NCBI GenBank assembly: GCA_900073065.1
Contig: FJOG01000001.1
Coordinates: 3,520,827-3,584,826 of the forward strand
From: Phialocephala subalpina
Taxonomy: Eukaryota > Ascomycota > Leotiomycetes > Helotiales > Mollisiaceae
DNA: 64,000 nt
Direction: 5' to 3'
The position numbers and the translations under genes were made by a program. Positions 38,872 to 47,793 of the stretch are shown one piece after another (within the stretch, counting starts at the first letter, position 1; each line of letters begins with the position of its first letter). The notes beneath the pieces are model-generated. The model was not told the DNA's origin, made no database searches, and saw nothing but the letters and a program-made list of their open reading frames with translations.

Positions 38872-39780
38872 CTAGCAGTTTTCACTGATTTTGTGTTGCT
38901 TCACTCTTGTATCTCCCGTATCTTTCTTCTCCACGATCGAAACTTCGAAACTTCCTTGTTCCTTCAAATTGCCCCAAGAAAATCCCTCCAATTGACTCCA
39001 TCTCTCATGAAGAATTCCAGCTGATATTTTGTTCCTGAAATCTCCCTCCTCCAATAGGCCTACCCCTCCTACACCTGTACGCCTCCAAGTCTCGCCGGCC
39101 ATGTCGTTCCAAAATCATCCATCATGTTCCCTCCGTGAAATTACCTGCGTATAAGATAGCGGCAACCTAACTCGTGTGCGTGGTCGTCAAGGGAGCAGGA
39201 GAGAGTCCGAGATTCACACTGAGCCTCAAAGTCTGGAAGCAGTCTCATATTGGTAATCCCGCGGGCCTGCGCGATGCAATGGGCCATCCGAAGTTGGCTT
39301 GCTGCTGATAGATCTGGATCGCATGATTGAATTGGCCGCGTCTCTGGCTCGCGGTCGTGTTGGAGGCAGGCCTCAGGACAATGGCTAGTTCATCAAGGAA
39401 AGTGTTGAATGCTTGCCAGTGCGGACTGGTTTTGTTGAACTCTGTTGTCTCTTGCCAGAGTGGTAGTACCACGGTTCCGTGAGGTTCATTTGGATCAGAA
39501 TGTTCCTGTTCGTTGGGGACGCGATGCAATGGGCCATCCGAAGTTGGCTTGCTGCTGATAGATCTGGATCGCATGATTGAATTGGCCGCGTCTCTGGCTC
39601 GCGGTCGTGTTGGAGGCAGGCCTCAGGACAATGGCTAGTTCATCAAGGAAAGTGTTGAATGCTTGCCAGTGCGGACTGGTTTTGTTGAACTCTGTTGTCT
39701 CTTGCCAGAGTGGTAGTACCACGGTTCCGTGAGGTTCATTTGGATCAGAATGTTCCTGTTCGTTGGGGACTACTCGTAGC
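38872..39780 (-). pseudogene. Unknown family member A, tandem-duplicated
   Basis: On the minus strand the 5' part reads VVPNEQEHSDPNEPHGTVVL, then WQETTEFNKTSPHWQAFNTF, within a 250-bp unit present twice in tandem. The 3' part (39102-38872) reads WNDMAGETWRRTGVGG and ends in KISENC. A second family member at 48451-49123 (minus) shares the same order of segments, with PNPDELYGTIVLLLWQETWT and SPRWQAFNTF, so this is a real protein family of unknown function. The 250-bp duplication is not a multiple of three and breaks the frame, and an N-terminus like that of copy B is missing. It is probably non-functional. Confidence 0.5.
39271..39770. repeat. Perfect 250-bp tandem duplication
   Basis: Positions 39271-39520 and 39521-39770 read identically base for base, head to tail, with no spacer. 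The unit lies within unknown family member A. Perfect identity suggests a very recent event or an assembly error. Confidence 0.95.
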
Positions 39781-40615: not shown

Positions 40616-41589
40616 ATGAGCTTCGGGTTCAGTGTCGGCGACTTTCTTACTCTGTCGACACTTGCATGGGACGTCTACAGTTCTTGCAAGGACTCGTCGA
40701 GAGAGTTCAAGGATCTCGCAGGCCAAGTAAACTCGCTATATTTTATTCTACAGAGTACGGCCGAGCACCTGCTAAAGCACCCCCCAGAGACCAGAGAAGC
40801 AGCGGAACTCGCGGGCATAACAACCCGGTGTCACGATAGCCTCACTGAAATTAATTGTTTGCTTCGAAAACACAGCAGCCTTGGGACGCAAAAACCACGA
40901 CGATGGGATATGATTAAGTGGGCTTTCGGGGACGCGCTACGCGCTAAAGACAGGCTGGTATTTCACGCCACTGTGCTCGCTGCGCTGAACTCCAGCCTGA
41001 CCCAGTACGTTTATCATCCCGTTGTCCGTCTTGACGTTGAAATCTCACTGACATGGAGGGCGGTAGATTTTCACAAGCGCGAGTTGAGAAGAGTCTGGAC
41101 ATGTTGATCCGACAGATTGACAGGGAAAACTCTGGACCGGGTCGTCCCGCCGAGTGCCTTTCGGGTGATGTTTCAACGTCACCACCAGCGCAGGGCAGCG
41201 TGCCCGATCCTCAGGAAGACAAGGCGAGCAACTTTACGGATGGAACGTTGAGCGACTTCACGGACGACACGCTCACCAATAATTCAGACTGTCCGAGTGG
41301 TGGTGGTGCGGGAGGGAGAGGAGGAGGTGGAGGTGGAGGATCACCACCCAGCCCCGTTATTAGCGAAGGCGGCTCTTTTTCCAGCAGCGCCTCAGGGCAG
41401 GGACATGTATACCAGCATGTTAAGGCAGGAGACACCAGCGTCCAAATCAACGGAGATATGCTCAGCACGCTCTCCTCGTTTCGGACACCAAATAATTACT
41501 ACATGGATGTCACTGCGAGTGGGAAGAGCTGGCAGATTAATGGGAATTTGGATTTGGAGCCCTTTTTGGAGCTGGTCAAGGCTCGATAA
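40616..41589 (+). CDS. HeLo-like effector with two C-terminal amyloid motifs
   Basis: Exons are 40616-41004 and 41067-41589, giving 303 aa, close to the 289 aa of HET-S. The intron (GTACGT, branch CTGAC, GGTAG) joins SSLTQ to FSQARVEKS in frame. Residues 1 to about 160 are helical, starting MSFGFSVGDFLTLSTLAWDV, as in the HeLo-like N-terminal domains of fungal death effectors and STAND proteins. A Thr/Asp/Ser-rich linker with poly-Gly (GGRGGGGGGG) follows. The C-terminus has two motifs, GHVYQHVKAGDTSVQINGD (242-260) and NNYYMDVTASGKSWQINGN (272-290), related to each other and to motifs in the next two genes. In known systems such motifs adopt a beta-solenoid amyloid fold that activates the HeLo domain to permeabilise membranes; that role is inferred here. 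Confidence 0.8.
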
Positions 41590-41945
41590 TATCCCCTAAA
41601 ACGCCAACTCGCTTACGCCTTTTAGCGTCAAAAAGTCTTGGCGGCCCCCCCTCAAAACACACTTGGAGAGGTATCTACCATTCTGAGCTATGGAATCTAT
41701 CAAAACAAGGTTCCTCTTTGTAGAGAGGTATATCACAAGCTGCGCATCCACAGACACTACTTTTCCTGCACCCAGATCCCTTCCTATTGGCTGAAATCTC
41801 TCCTAAAACCTTGCTCTTTTTCATAGGAACCCCCTCCCTTTTGCACACTGGACATTCACCCTTACTCCCCCTATAACTAACAAAAATCGATTCTGGCGCC
41901 TTAAGGGATAGTATGCGTCGTTGACATTATTGCACAAATCGAATT

Positions 41946-42256
41946 TCATTTCAATGCAGCGGCAAACGCAGCCTCAGACGTGTTCCCATTGACTTGAACA
42001 CTGTTGCCCGATGCTAGCGGACTATTGAACAAATGCTTCTCCGGAGCGATATCCTTTCCCACATTGCCGTTGAATTGCTTCGAAGAATCAACTGAGCTCG
42101 GGCTGTAAAACCGGTGACCGTCCATTTCAATCACATTTCTAATGAAGAACGTCAGCTCCGCCATCGCCTTTAATTAAAGAGTTTGATGTTGACTTACACG
42201 CCCGCTGCCACCTTAATAGTTTTCTTTTCGTTCGGCTTGAGTGATGGGGATGGCAT
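41946..42256 (-). CDS. 83-aa amyloid-motif-only protein
   Basis: Exons are 42256-42198 and 42138-41946. The 59-nt intron (GTAAGT...CATTAG) joins GV to NVIEM with correct phase. The 83-aa product has a short basic N-terminus (MPSPSLKPNEKKTIKVAAG) and then two motifs, GHRFYSPSSVDSSKQFNGN (27-45) and KHLFNSPLASGNSVQVNGN (54-72), plus an Ala-rich end. No other domain is present. It faces the effector gene tail to tail and is divergent from the receptor gene, with 858 bp between the two start codons, which could hold a shared promoter. Codons in the shared Q-x-N-G-N core differ from those of the neighbours, so the protein motif, not just DNA, is conserved. It could act as a seed, regulator or inhibitor of the cluster's amyloid; all of these are inference. 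Confidence 0.72.
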
Positions 42257-43114
42257 GGTCAAGGTGAGGTGGCTTCTGGAGACTAATGATCGTGTCGTAC
42301 GGAGGTACAGCGGATACGTATGGTCACGGCCTTGGTTCCGCTGCTTATCAATGCTTTGACTTGGATTCTCGCGAATTAACGGAGGATATGTTTAATGGTT
42401 CATTCAACAGATCTCCTTTCTACCGCCAGACCCTTATACTTTGTATACGCGACTCGAAATTGCTAGAGAAGGGAGAAGTTTGCACCGAATGCAAGCCACC
42501 TGGTAGGGATCACAAAGCCAGATGTGATGTATTTGAAACACCTGGCACTGTTAAAAAGTGCTAAGGCTCTTCTGCATCGCAGAGACGGCATATTCTGACG
42601 TAGCCGAGAGTGGGCTGCAGATGTCTTGACTCTTGACTCTTGAGTTGGCTTGCGCCAAAGCACCAGAGGGATTGTTTTTAGAAACGCAGAGGATGAAGGA
42701 ACTTCCCCAACCAACCGTGGCCTTCGATGCGTCGTCCCCGTACATCCAGCGCAGGCCGCATGTTTGGGCTTCGTACCGTTCGGCATCGTGGCGCTGCTGC
42801 CCGATCGTACCCGAAAAGCCAACCATACGTGGGCAACAATTTGTGCATGCAAGGAACGCCAGCCTCGCAATTAAAGTTTTTGGCTGATTTATGACGAGTC
42901 AACGGTAAGACAAGAAGGGGGCTTTGAGCGAAGATTTATGAAGTTAAGATATCAACACTGAACTACTCTCAACGCAGCGGGCCACCCCTCAACATCATTG
43001 TAGGACTCTAGAGAACAGAGACCTCTCCGGAGATTGCCTGCGCTATTGTTCCTCCAAAAACCCTGTGCGCTCTTACTGATTCTATTGCCTGTCGAACGTA
43101 CATCGCCGCTCCCA
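42257..43114. promoter_or_regulatory. Divergent intergenic region, amyloid gene/NLR
   Basis: This 858-bp gap separates the start codons of the small amyloid gene (minus) and the receptor (plus). It contains several short overlapping frames (42286-42564 and 42633-42902 on both strands), none with a motif. It must hold both promoters, but I see no specific element. Confidence 0.4.
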
Positions 43115-46100
43115 ATGACTGATTCCAGGCCAACCACGCCGGCTCGGCCAGGGGACAACGATTATAACGGCCCAGCATCGGAACATCTGTTGGCTCAGTT
43201 CAACGGGAATCCAGCCATAACCTTATTGCAGGCGCCATCCCCTGTCGGATCGTTCCCCGTGCCCGATTCCAGGGCCACCACGCCGAGTCCACCAGCGGGG
43301 AATGCCTATAGCCGTCCGATTTCTCCAAATTGCTGGGAGTTTATCCAGACTCCATCACCTGTACTTCCGCCCGCCTATAGCCGTCCGATGTCTCCAAATC
43401 GGTGGGAGTTTATCCAGGCTCCATCGCCTGTACTTCCACCCCTACCTAGTTCCAGGACAAACACTCCAGGTCCACCAGCAGGGCATACCTTTGAAAACCC
43501 AATATCACAAGGTGGATCTTCTCAGCACAACGGCAATCGCATTTCCAACATCGAGAGTCCCAGTATACACCAGCATCAGCAAGTTGTTGTCATGACACCA
43601 ATTGCAAATGATCTTCAGCACCGTAAATTATCTCCTTCCTAGCACTTTGTGCAATGGGGGACTGTGAAACAATTTCAGGTCTAATTTGGTTTCAGAAAAC
43701 CCGCAGTCTCAGGGCATCCAAGAGTCTATAGAAGGTCTGCAGTCATTGCACTTCAAAGAGATGACTTCGCGAAAATGTCTGATTACTAAAAATTGTGAGG
43801 GTACCTGTGGGTGGCTGCTTGGACATGGCAAGTATCGAACATGGAAGATGCCTGGGGCAATTCGTTGTGGACAAGTTGCATGTTCTCCTCACTGCTTTCT
43901 AAATGGGTAACTAACTAATCTGGTAGCAGCAACGAAATGACGTACGTCATGTGACAGATGAAGCCAGTGATATCCTTTGGATAACGGGCATGCCTGGGAG
44001 TGGCAAGTCAACCTTGTTGAAGTACGCCGCTCAGGAGACGGAAAAGTCGAGCCCTGCTTGTATCGTGGCTTCCTTTTTCTTCTCTCGAAGTGGTACCCAG
44101 ATGCAACGGAGCGCTCTTGGGCTCTTTCGCTCCCTCTTGCACCAGCTCTTCACACCAAGCCTTCAGTTGCCTGACTTCTTCCTGCAAACTTTTAGAGCGA
44201 AGCGCAATACGAAAGGAAAGTCAGGCGAAGATTGGGAATGGCATAAGGAGGAGCTTCAAAACTTCTTCAACTTATACGTTGCATCAAGTCGATATCGAAT
44301 ACTAATCTTCATCGACGCTCTGGACGAATGTACAGAAGATGATCCGTGGCAGCTGGTGCATTACTTTAAGACCCTAGCAGCATCAGCCGATTCCACTCTT
44401 AGTATCTGCTTTTCCTGTCGACATATCCCCAGCATCGGACCCAGCGATGACGATGCTCACACCATCTGCGTCGAGAAGGAAAATGAAAAGGACATCTCGA
44501 CTTATATCACAGCAAACCTGAAACCTGCTTTCAAAGAGGAGGCTGAGGAGCAACATATTAAAGATATCAGAAGAGAGATATCGGCAAAGGCCTCTGGTAG
44601 CTTTCAATGGGTTGAGCTCGCCATTGAAAAGACTCTTTCCTTTCGAAGGAAGGGAAAATCCGTGAAAACCATCCTAAATATGCTTCTGCAGATACCACAA
44701 GCTCTAGATGGACTCTATCGCCAAATCCTAATCAATATCGATAAAGAAGAGCGGTCTGAGGCCCTACATCTTATGCAATGGGTCTGCTTAGCCGCTCGGC
44801 CTCTAGCATTGACAGAGTTGCGATTGGCGATGGCTTCTGACTGGGCAGACCCACGGCAGCGACCTCACCAAAACCATGGTGAGCTGGAGAAGTCTGAGGA
44901 CTACGAGAATGACGCGCAGATGAAAAGGCTGGTAGAGAACCTCTCAGGTGGCCTTGTTGAGGTCAAGAGCGAGAAGCGCGAGGAACCCGAGTGTACGGTG
45001 CAGCTGATCCATCAATCTGTCTACGATTTTCTCGTTCTGGGCGGCATCCAGATTCTTAATGAATCCAAAGACATCCGCCACTCAATTGGGCAAGGGCACC
45101 ATCGCATGGCAAGAGCCTGTATCAACTATGCTACTTTAGCAGATGTTCATCTTGCAGTCCGGACAGGTCAGACACAGCAGTTCCCTTTTCTGTCCTACGC
45201 TGTCAAATCCTGGGTATGGCACGCAAAAAAAGCCGAGGCAAGTGGCATCTCTCAAGATGACCTGCCCGAGCGGTTTCAAGGCCCATTCGGTGGCTTTCTT
45301 CAGCGTTGGATTGATGCGTATCGGGCGATTGACCCTAGTTCAGAAGGATGCCCAGACGGACGGGCGACCTTGCTCCATGTAACCTCGGAACATGGAATCC
45401 TGAGCGTCGTCAAGACCTTGCTCCTCGAACCTGCCCTTGACATTAACTCTTTTAACAACAAGAAACGAACCCCGTTGTCATATGCCGCAGAAAAGGGGCA
45501 CGGGGAGGTAGTTAAGGCATTGCTGGACGCGGGTGCCAATGCAAACCTCAAGGATATCAATGGGCGAACACCCTTGTGGTATGCAACAAGGAATAAAAAT
45601 GCGGGAGTACTCGAACTCTTGCTCAAAAGTGATAGCACGAAGTATGACATCCGGAGGTGGCTGTGGTATGCGGCAAGGAATGGGTATGAGGATGTAATTA
45701 GGGTATTGCTGGAGAAGGGGGTTGATCCAAATTCCAAAGACAGCGCCGAACGGACATTGCTGTGGCATGCCGCGGGGAAAGGTCATATGGGCTTAGTGAC
45801 ATTTCTGCTCGAGAAAGGTGCAGTTGTCGATTCAAGAGACACCTGGGGTCAAACGCCTGTATTCTCGGCTACGAACAATGGTCACTATGAAGTGGTCGAT
45901 CTGCTCTTGAGGCAGAAGGCCGACGTCAAGTCCAGTGATAAAGAAGGTCGAACGCCCTTATCATTGGCTGCGGATAACGGCCATGCCACATTGGTTACCC
46001 TGCTGCTCGCAGAAAATGTCGACGTGGATCTAAGTGATGAAAAGGGCAGGGCACCATTGTGGTACGCTGCTCATAATGGTCACGCACGGGTGGTGGAGAT

Positions 46101-46134
46101 ATTGCTTGAGAATGGTGCCGGCAAGAAGGCCTAG
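43115..46134 (+). CDS. NACHT-ankyrin receptor with N-terminal amyloid motifs
   Basis: Exons are 43115-43622, 43696-43874 and 43927-46134, giving 964 aa. Intron 1 (GTAAAT...TTTCAG) is clear; the second (about 43875-43926, branch CTAAC, GTAG) has a weak donor. The N-terminus bears two motifs, DNDYNGPASEHLLAQFNGN (14-32) and GHTFENPISQGGSSQHNGN (123-141), separated by a Pro-rich region with a 23-residue unit repeated twice. Next is a pre-NACHT segment (SLHFKEMTSRKCLITKNCEG), then NACHT with Walker A GMPGSGKST and Walker B LIFIDALDE. A winged-helix-like part (IHQSVYDFLV) and at least six ankyrin repeats follow (TPLSYAAEKGHGEVVKALLD and others). NLRs of this layout sense ligands and template amyloid folding of a HeLo effector. 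The ankyrin tail probably once extended further. Confidence 0.82.
43304..43441. repeat. 69-bp tandem coding repeat in receptor N-terminus
   Basis: Units at 43304-43372 and 43373-43441 are over 85 percent identical and encode a 23-residue Pro-rich repeat containing YSRPxSPNxWEFIQ and PSPVLPP. The unit keeps the frame and lies between the two amyloid motifs. Confidence 0.9.
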
Positions 46135-46197
46135 ACATGTTTGGATAGGGGAGATGATGATTTAGTGCAGTAGAGGCGGGGGCGCCACTACCTTGTA

Positions 46198-46420
46198 CGA
46201 AAGGGGTTTGTCAAAATTAATGCAACACGACAAGGGTATGCTATCCCCTGAGTTATATACCAATTCTGACTTAAAATCCACTAAATTAATACTTAAATGT
46301 AGCTTAAGTCTAGTACTTTAATGCTATCTATTTGTTCTCTAAGAATATGTAATTTTGTTGTGGTTTACAAGGGATAGTATACCCTTGTCGTGTTGCATTA
46401 ATTTTGACAACCCCCTTTCG
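46198..46420. mobile_element. MITE, 50-bp TIRs, TA target site
   Basis: The element is 223 bp with terminal inverted repeats of 50 bp (two mismatches), each beginning CGAAAGGGG at the outer end. A TA dinucleotide flanks both sides (46196-46197 and 46421-46422), the target duplication of Tc1/mariner elements. The centre is AT-rich and non-coding. It lies 63 bp after the receptor stop codon. An ankyrin-like segment is readable just beyond it, so it inserted into the former 3' part of the receptor gene or into its decaying tail. Confidence 0.9.
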
Positions 46421-46422
46421 TA

Positions 46423-46600
46423 CCATATGCATTAAAGGTGGGGCATGAGGCGGGGGTAACACTGTTTCTTGAAAAAGGGGTCAGCGCGAACAGCCAACCC
46501 GGTATTGCGTTCAGCAAAGCATTCAAGGTTGGAACAGTTTCTGCTGCCTTGCATGTAGTTTTTAGGGTCCTACAAAACTCTTACGAGTCACAGTAAGAGA
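46423..46600 (+). pseudogene. Detached ankyrin-repeat remnant
   Basis: From about 46428 the plus strand reads ALKVGHEAGVTLFLEKGVSA followed by NSQPGIA, which matches the ankyrin pattern of the upstream receptor (compare GHMGLVTFLLEKGAVVDS). The frame stops near 46595. It is separated from the receptor's last repeat by a TAG stop and the MITE, so it is best read as the lost end of that gene. Confidence 0.6.
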
Positions 46601-46932: not shown

Positions 46933-47793
46933 CTATCGAGGACCCGAACCGGACTTCCCCTTCCCCTTCGACTTTTGAGAGTTGGCGTTTTGCCGTTTCT
47001 CAATGACGGTGCCGTCCCTAGAGAGGAAGTGATTCTCATCCAACTCAGTTTTGCCGGCCTCTGACTCCTGCGGATATCCATCAAGGAACCTCCCATCCCC
47101 TTTAAGAAGTGAATTGATCTTAGCGGTGAGTTCCCCATCGGCGTCCGCCTGACCGTTCATTCCCTTGACTTCCATGAGCTCATTCTCCAACCGAACTCTT
47201 TCGTTCTCCTTTAGTTGGAGCTGTCTTGCTAACTCCGCCTTAGCTGCCTGTGTATCCGCGTGTGCCTCCTCCTTTAGTTGGAGCTGTCCTGCTAACTTCG
47301 CCCTAGCTGCCTCCGTATTCGTGTGTGCCTCCTCCTTTAGTTGGAGCTGTCCTGCTAACTTCGCCCTAACTGCCTCGGTATTCACGTGTGCCTTTGCCTC
47401 TTGTTGGAGCTGTCCTGCTAACTTCGCCTTAGCTTCCTCGGTAATCGCGTGTGCCTTCACCTCCCGTTGGAGTTGTCCTGCTAACTTCGCCCTAGTTGCC
47501 TCGGTATCCGCGTGTGCCTCCTCCTCTAGTTGGAGCTGCCTCTGAACTTCTTGAAGCTTAAGCTCTAGCGTCTGGCGGTCCTTTTTCTCCTTCGCAAGCT
47601 CAAGCTTAGTGCTGCTGTGGTTGGCCTGTTCTGTCAACAGTCTTGTCTCTGCTGCTAAATTGACGAGTATCTCAATCGTACTGAATGTTTTGGGGTGGAG
47701 GAGCTGTAGAAAGTTTTGGCAAGCGCGCTCAATTTCTTCTCGAGTGCCCTCAGACTCTTGATTGGTCGATCTGCTCCCGTTTGTGTCCGCCAT
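46933..47793 (-). CDS. Coiled-coil protein with 20-residue repeats
   Basis: A single-exon frame encodes 286 aa. Residues 1-75 form a mixed helical N-terminus (REEIERACQNFLQLLHP). The centre (about 85-200) has six copies of a 20-residue heptad-rich repeat, of the type AKLAGQLQLKEEAHADTEAA, predicted to be a long coiled coil. The C-terminus is hydrophilic and ends basic (KSKGKGKSGSG). I recognise no family. It sits 3' of the receptor and converges on it. The 60-bp units, at about 47210-47530 on the plus strand, make copy number potentially unstable. Confidence 0.65.
   Translation of the reverse strand: MADTNGSRSTNQESEGTREEIERACQNFLQLLHPKTFSTIEILVNLAAETRLLTEQANHSSTKLELAKEKKDRQTLELKLQEVQRQLQLEEEAHADTEATRAKLAGQLQREVKAHAITEEAKAKLAGQLQQEAKAHVNTEAVRAKLAGQLQLKEEAHTNTEAARAKLAGQLQLKEEAHADTQAAKAELARQLQLKENERVRLENELMEVKGMNGQADADGELTAKINSLLKGDGRFLDGYPQESEAGKTELDENHFLSRDGTVIEKRQNANSQKSKGKGKSGSGPR
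47210..47530. repeat. 60-bp intragenic tandem repeat, about five copies
   Basis: Each unit contains TTGGAGCTGTCCTGCTAACT or a close variant on the plus strand. Units remain in frame within the coiled-coil gene. Confidence 0.88.

Follow-up and report, generated by a model that had tools for sequence, protein, structure and literature searches.

A cluster of three adjacent genes in the genome of Phialocephala subalpina, a root-dwelling helotialean ascomycete (68.1 Mb, 119 contigs), probably encodes an immune signalosome that works through a prion-like amyloid, as in HET-S/NWD2. The cluster lies in the window, that is, the whole stretch of 64,000 nucleotides (nt) of contig FJOG01000001.1 that was analysed here. 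It consists of an effector gene on the plus strand, a small motif-only gene on the minus strand, and a receptor gene on the plus strand, the small gene being located between the other two. The gene models, their adjacency, and the motif shared by all three are computational observations. The signalosome reading is given a probability of about 0.72, and two of the alternatives discussed below, which see the small protein as a decoy or as a leftover, would keep it.

The features of the cluster are the following, with flank scores that are explained below and lengths in amino acids (aa):

40616..41589, plus strand: effector gene, 303 aa; exon 1 at 40616-41004 (predicted HeLo-like helical domain), exon 2 at 41067-41589 (linker and two C-terminal motifs)
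41005-41066, plus strand: effector intron, 62 nt
41398..41460, plus strand: effector motif r1, QGHVYQHVKAGDTSVQINGDM; flank score above 61/61 chance sites
41488..41550, plus strand: effector motif r2, PNNYYMDVTASGKSWQINGNL; flank score above 61/61 chance sites; then a short tail in which an F is conserved
41946..42256, minus strand: small motif-only gene PAC_01126, 83 aa; exon 1 at 42256-42198, intron at 42197-42139, exon 2 at 42138-41946
42060..42122, minus strand: small-protein motif 1, DGHRFYSPSSVDSSKQFNGNV; flank score above 61/61 chance sites
41979..42041, minus strand: small-protein motif 2, EKHLFNSPLASGNSVQVNGNT; flank score above 61/61 chance sites
43115..46134, plus strand: receptor gene PAC_01127, 964 aa; exons at 43115-43622, 43696-43874 and 43927-46134, two introns
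43151..43213, plus strand: receptor motif 1, GDNDYNGPASEHLLAQFNGNP, residues 13-33; marginal, 3/61 chance sites scoring higher
43478..43540, plus strand: receptor motif 2, AGHTFENPISQGGSSQHNGNR, residues 122-142, candidate r0; flank score above 61/61 chance sites
43972..44343, plus strand: NACHT NTPase match in the receptor
45436..46110, plus strand: receptor ankyrin repeats, approximate limits

In the proposed mechanism, a cue would be sensed through the ankyrin repeats, leading to oligomerisation of the NACHT receptor. The oligomer would gather its N-terminal motif copies into one-rung beta-solenoid layers which, in turn, may act as templates for the C-terminal motif pair of the neighbouring effector. 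Once folded, the effector tail would free the MLKL-like helical domain, causing membrane disruption and the death of the cell. The 83-aa protein, barely more than two motif rungs, may join the same fibre. Amyloid formation, templating and cell death are what we infer for this locus, the role of the small protein being the most conjectural part.

The original prediction described six motifs of 19 residues, two in each gene. All six are found at the places it gave and align without gaps, and the codons of their cores differ between copies as it claimed; the motif is thus real, but its natural unit is 21 residues rather than 19. This unit ends in Q-h-N-G-[DN]-h, with the glycine at position 19 of the published HRAM numbering, and Q16, N18 and G19 are identical in 6/6 window motifs. 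Pairs of the motif are also present in other fungal and metagenomic proteins. A profile search with the motif pair retrieved 17 proteins at E<=1, including PAC_01126 itself, with P0034 found only at 0.08. The rule Q-x-N-G-[DNHS] yielded a set of 37 motifs from 19 non-window proteins (35 after removal of near-duplicates), from which P0001-P0003, P0020 and P0024 were left out. The commonest residues in this set are H/N3, Y5, V/A8, A/S10, G/D12, S/A14, Q16, I17, N18, G19, D/N20 and I/V/L21. In 16 homologue pairs, position 20 is D in 15/16 first copies and N in 14/16 second copies, and the spacing from Q to Q is 28-30 residues; it amounts to 30 in the effector (loop of 9) and 27 in the small protein (loop of 6).

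With a matrix made from the 35 non-window motifs, the window motifs rank 1, 2, 7, 8, 10 and 16 among 272,887 distinct 21-mers from the DNA retrieved for the analysis. The family matrix also ranks high four HRAM motifs of this genome; two further ones were discounted, one at rank 244 (selected with a previous version of the matrix) and one at rank 90 (a sub-threshold PF11558 match). Because the motif-picking rule itself contains the core, positions 16-20 were masked in a separate test that scores the flanks only. The core DNA pattern matches 115 sites of the genome, of which 100 were listed; 13 of these belong to the window and to three clustered loci described below, and the remaining 87 were fetched. 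A stop occurred within the 15 codons upstream in 26 of them, which were removed, so that 61 chance sites were used. The best of the 61 scores -1.1, against 28.0 and 25.7 for effector motifs r1 and r2, 6.2 and 6.7 for the small protein, and 8.6 for receptor copy 2. Receptor copy 1 scores -4.3, below 3/61 chance sites, and the count is again 3/61 when the matrix is built from seven P8-type motifs. Since five copies beat all 61 chance sites and one does not, five of the six copies claimed for the three genes are secure, while the first receptor copy is marginal.

A resemblance between unrelated proteins, by chance or low complexity, is therefore rejected for these five copies, receptor motif 1 excepted, and the concern of the original prediction that the motifs might be unrelated low-complexity matches was not borne out for them. 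The core is short, with its 115 sites in the genome compared to 81 for the pattern read backwards, and together with the marginal first receptor copy this is what speaks for chance. Besides the flank test, chance is contradicted by the homologues from Monosporascus and a Phaeosphaeriaceae species, which keep both copies at the same position, and by a search of the whole genome with the homologous pair of P0018, a protein found via a profile that included the window proteins. At E<=10, this search retrieved only the effector (4.7e-4), an effector paralogue at C39 (0.0017), and the small gene (0.0033). As an explanation of the whole motif set, chance is extremely improbable.

The effector motif pair is predicted to fold as a beta-solenoid. 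A template-free AlphaFold2 model gives block values of the predicted local distance difference test (pLDDT) of 89-95 in the motifs, and its closest structures among 350,542 PDB chains are the prion amyloids HELLF (6EKA) first and HET-s second, although both matches are modest. Beta-solenoid stacking, a check suggested along with the original prediction, is thus tentatively predicted. Charges are complementary between the tandem repeats, a fraction of 0.0016 of 5000 re-pairings reaching the observed value in the 16 pairs (positions 16 and 18-20 excluded).

The layout is likewise that of HRAM proteins, with two C-terminal repeats of about 21 residues on a HeLo-class protein and a loop that in published HRAMs mostly has 6-18 residues. 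The invariant G19 of HRAMs is found in 6/6 window motifs and in 37/37 homologous motifs, the latter having been picked by Q-x-N-G. Positions 5, 8 and 10 are hydrophobic in 32, 28 and 23 of the 32 motifs of the 16 homologue pairs; in the four motifs of the small protein and the receptor, position 5 is Y/F in 4/4, position 8 is P in 4/4, and position 10 is S in 3/4. HRAMs are usually hydrophobic at positions 16 and 18, although the 2015 paper gives Q18 for HRAM4 and Q16 for HRAM5. Here, Q16 and N18 occupy these positions in 6/6 window motifs, and 0/32 homologue motifs, again picked by Q-x-N-G, are hydrophobic at either. For this reason, the motif family is kept outside HRAM1-5. It is likely to work like HRAMs and is predicted to have their fold, and the Q16 of HRAM5, together with HELLF being the best structural match, makes a place beside or within HRAM5 possible. 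The core NxGxQxGxN of PP/RHIM motifs was seen by eye in none of the six copies.

The HeLo-like effector with C-terminal motifs held up as regards its two motifs, whereas its head is an MLKL-like bundle by prediction. Exon 1 is modelled as a helical bundle (AlphaFold2, mean pLDDT 78.7) that matches the MLKL executioner structures 6ZVO and 6ZZ1 (probability 0.99 for both; template modelling scores 0.63 and 0.66; E 0.26 and 0.35), and also plant coiled-coil domains. The HeLo-like family PF17111 is reached at E 0.018 in the effector and 6.4e-4 in the relative P0007, all below the curated cut-off. Homologues that span 100% of the query and have the same layout come from Monosporascus sp. 5C6A (P0005) and a Phaeosphaeriaceae species (P0006), at 34% and 35% identity, and in P0014 a HeLo-like domain is fused to a NACHT-type NTPase. 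No named P. subalpina counterpart of the effector model was found among the matches.

The NACHT-ankyrin receptor with motifs in its N-terminal region was recognised as PAC_01127, the model having the same length (964 aa) and 100% identity over the 250 N-terminal residues compared. Its domain matches (NPHP3_N 1e-26, NACHT 3.1e-6, Ank_2 1.2e-52) follow the order of fungal NOD-like receptors (NLRs), with an NTPase followed by repeats. Between the two receptor motifs, a 69-nt tandem repeat at 43304-43441 (91% identical) codes for a unit rich in proline. The receptor has a paralogue at C39:1454251, where no Q-x-N-G was seen by eye in 2.2 kb of frames up to the match.

Several results weigh against the signalosome reading. 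On the side of the receptor, the secure motif starts at residue 122, whereas that of NWD2 sits at the very N-terminus, the N-terminal-most copy being the marginal one, and a search with residues 1-250 against 5.8 billion proteins (E<=0.001) returned only the receptor itself and no other NLR with the motif. On the side of the effector, the helical-bundle matches are unspecific, with Cbl, IncA and designed proteins level with or above MLKL and some at a higher Z, and the fold matches of the tail are not significant by E-value. The tail model was built from the unshuffled alignment only, and AlphaFold2 was probably trained on the HELLF and HET-s prion structures. As for the motif, residues at positions 16-20 were counted in motifs selected by Q-x-N-G; PDB profile searches with the family missed both HET-s and HELLF; an hhalign comparison with the two HRAMs of this genome gave a non-significant probability of 0.1%; and membership of PF11558, the HET-s prion-forming domain, was rejected, with 0/24 members matching at E<=1. 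By comparison, a profile of two HRAM sequences of this genome retrieves HET-s at 2.5e-16, and PF11558 itself has two loci above the cut-off in other parts of the genome. The suggested comparison with HRAM profiles thus gave no match at the level of sequence.

It could then be proposed that the motif is a short peptide bound by a folded partner rather than an amyloid. The polar Q16 and N18, where HRAM cores are usually hydrophobic, fit such a peptide, as does the missing sequence-level match to HET-s or HELLF. It would not be expected, however, to yield a predicted solenoid whose top two matches among all PDB chains searched are HELLF and HET-s, nor charge complementarity between tandem copies and the same layout as HRAM proteins, and it is regarded as improbable. 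The HET-S/NWD2 logic of the original prediction is supported by the predicted tail solenoid, the MLKL-like head, the adjacent NLR with a motif in its N-terminal region, and the charge complementarity, with the reservation that one of the motif copies is marginal.

The tiny stand-alone protein of the original prediction is present and has no known domain, but its gene is spliced and encodes 83 aa. The spliced model is letter-for-letter the public protein PAC_01126. The open reading frame (ORF) 41946-42164 starts inside the intron (GTAAGT...CTGAC...TTCTTCATTAG), its first nine residues being intronic, and the true start is at 42256. The protein carries the two motifs and, like the effectors, ends in a short tail behind motif 2 in which an F is conserved. 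P0024, a relative from metagenomic data that is an unspliced ORF and has a longer C-terminus, is identical at 43/63 residues and differs at 20/63, with 0/10 Q-x-N-G-N core residues changed (P = 0.015 for random placement).

Within the signalosome, the small protein may be a soluble relay, or a booster, that links receptor and effector, a role that is plausible although tentative. Receptor copy 2 shares 10 and 9/21 residues with the small-protein motifs and 6 and 6/21 with those of the effector, and the motifs of the small protein and the effector have 7, 5, 7 and 8 residues in common. A relay could leave such a pattern, although few motifs underlie it. The argument is a weak one, since receptor motif 2 also resembles a motif copy at C14 fairly closely (8/21).

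Alternatively, in the same signalosome, the small protein might be a decoy or buffer that soaks up stray receptor seeds without a killing domain, raising the threshold for death. No domain was found in it, yet it shows the two-rung layout of the homologue pairs and the short tail, and a precedent is found in HET-s, a protein with the same tail as the killer, without killing activity, and able to exist as a prion (excerpts of PMC5485727). A small protein seeding effector tails would amplify the signal and not buffer it, and a decoy appears rather unlikely. The gene might also be a relic with no role, namely the amyloid tail of a second effector that has decayed, retained by chance. Such decay does occur, as shown by the effector paralogue at C39 with an in-frame TAG between its motifs, and the first exon encodes only about 20 residues with no known domain. 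On the other hand, the frame is open and spliced with consensus splice sites, P0024 keeps all 10 core residues despite its changes (P = 0.015), and no effector domain that would indicate a larger origin was seen by eye upstream on that strand up to 43110. A leftover is deemed unlikely, and a relay seems the likeliest of the three roles, though less likely than not.

The comparison with known systems relied on PMC4518210 and on excerpts of PMC5485727, PMC9815663, PMC7885112, PMC12261475, PMC7889193 and PMC12881547. The HRAM systems are described in these sources as one receptor and one killer, with a single N-terminal receptor copy (r0). In Podospora anserina, HET-S/NWD2 (HRAM1) also combines an adjacent NACHT receptor with a HeLo-class effector carrying two C-terminal copies of a 21-residue motif, and a similar beta-solenoid is predicted here. 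Contrary to that system, positions 16 and 18 are here not hydrophobic, the receptor has ankyrin instead of WD repeats and two candidate motif copies, the better one internal, a motif-only gene is added, and the motifs do not match at the level of sequence. HELLF/FNT1 (HRAM5), from the same species, shares the HeLo-like effector, the best structural match to the effector tail (6EKA), and a Q described at position 16. However, FNT1 is an NB-ARC/TPR protein, the HELLF chain was missed by the profile searches, and N18 is not mentioned in the excerpted descriptions of HRAM5.

Three-gene motif clusters are already known, and a 2025 review speaks of two or three clustered genes. The PP cluster hellp/sbp/pnt1 of Chaetomium globosum holds three adjacent genes with one amyloid motif, including a HeLo-like killer and an NLR, and the sigma cluster sesA/sesB/het-eN of Nectria haematococca holds three genes with one common motif. 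In both, the third gene carries an effector domain, a putative lipase for PP and a predicted lipase for sigma; in addition, the PP core is absent here, and the sigma motif, of about 40 residues, is of another kind. Of the third component that the original prediction presented as an addition, the number of genes is therefore not new, and it is the lack of an effector domain in the third gene that is unusual. No description of this motif, locus or motif-only third gene was found in the literature searched and, as far as that literature goes, three traits are new, namely the core with Q16 and N18, the third gene with motifs only, and a receptor that may hold a second copy.

The motif is found elsewhere in the same genome. 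A helical-looking ORF at C37:229.2-230.4 kb, SesA-like by eye only and matching no SesA-type Pfam family, is followed by three motif copies (locus at 230.1 kb). On the minus strand of C14 (314.1-315.2 kb), a longer protein has one strong copy and two further Q-I-N-G-D cores, one of which scores weakly (locus at 314.6-314.9 kb). The interrupted effector paralogue lies at C39:653.1 kb, minus strand, and has an uninterrupted relative in metagenomes (P0019). Among the matches listed, the nearest NACHT is about 99 kb away on C14 and more than 400 kb away on C39, with none on C37; the window receptor could thus, speculatively, reach these carriers in trans. The two canonical HET-s-type loci found by PF11558 above the cut-off are C59:282001-290000, where a 302-aa protein with two HRAMs lies beside a NACHT receptor ORF, and C64:1385001-1394000.

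It is conceivable, although somewhat doubtful, that the motif represents an additional HRAM-like class whose ladder core is polar (Q16/N18), and that PAC_01126 is a dedicated amyloid-only gene for a two-rung protein serving solely to relay or tune the prion signal between receptor and killer, and perhaps towards the motif-carrying C37 and C14 proteins as well. A polar core would widen the known sequence space of the HET-s fold, and a motif-only protein between receptor and killer would offer a natural test for adaptors or buffers in prion cascades, as in death-fold pathways. Moreover, the polar-core motif and canonical HET-s-type loci coexist in one genome, so cross-seeding barriers become testable within a single species.

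Several repeats surround the cluster. An exact 250-bp tandem duplication is located upstream, at 39270-39769. Directly behind the receptor gene, an inverted repeat at 46195-46423, with 56-nt arms that are 95% complementary and separated by 117 nt, could be what remains of a small transposon. Further downstream, a 63-nt tandem repeat at 47206-47457 lies inside the minus-strand ORF 46933-47793.

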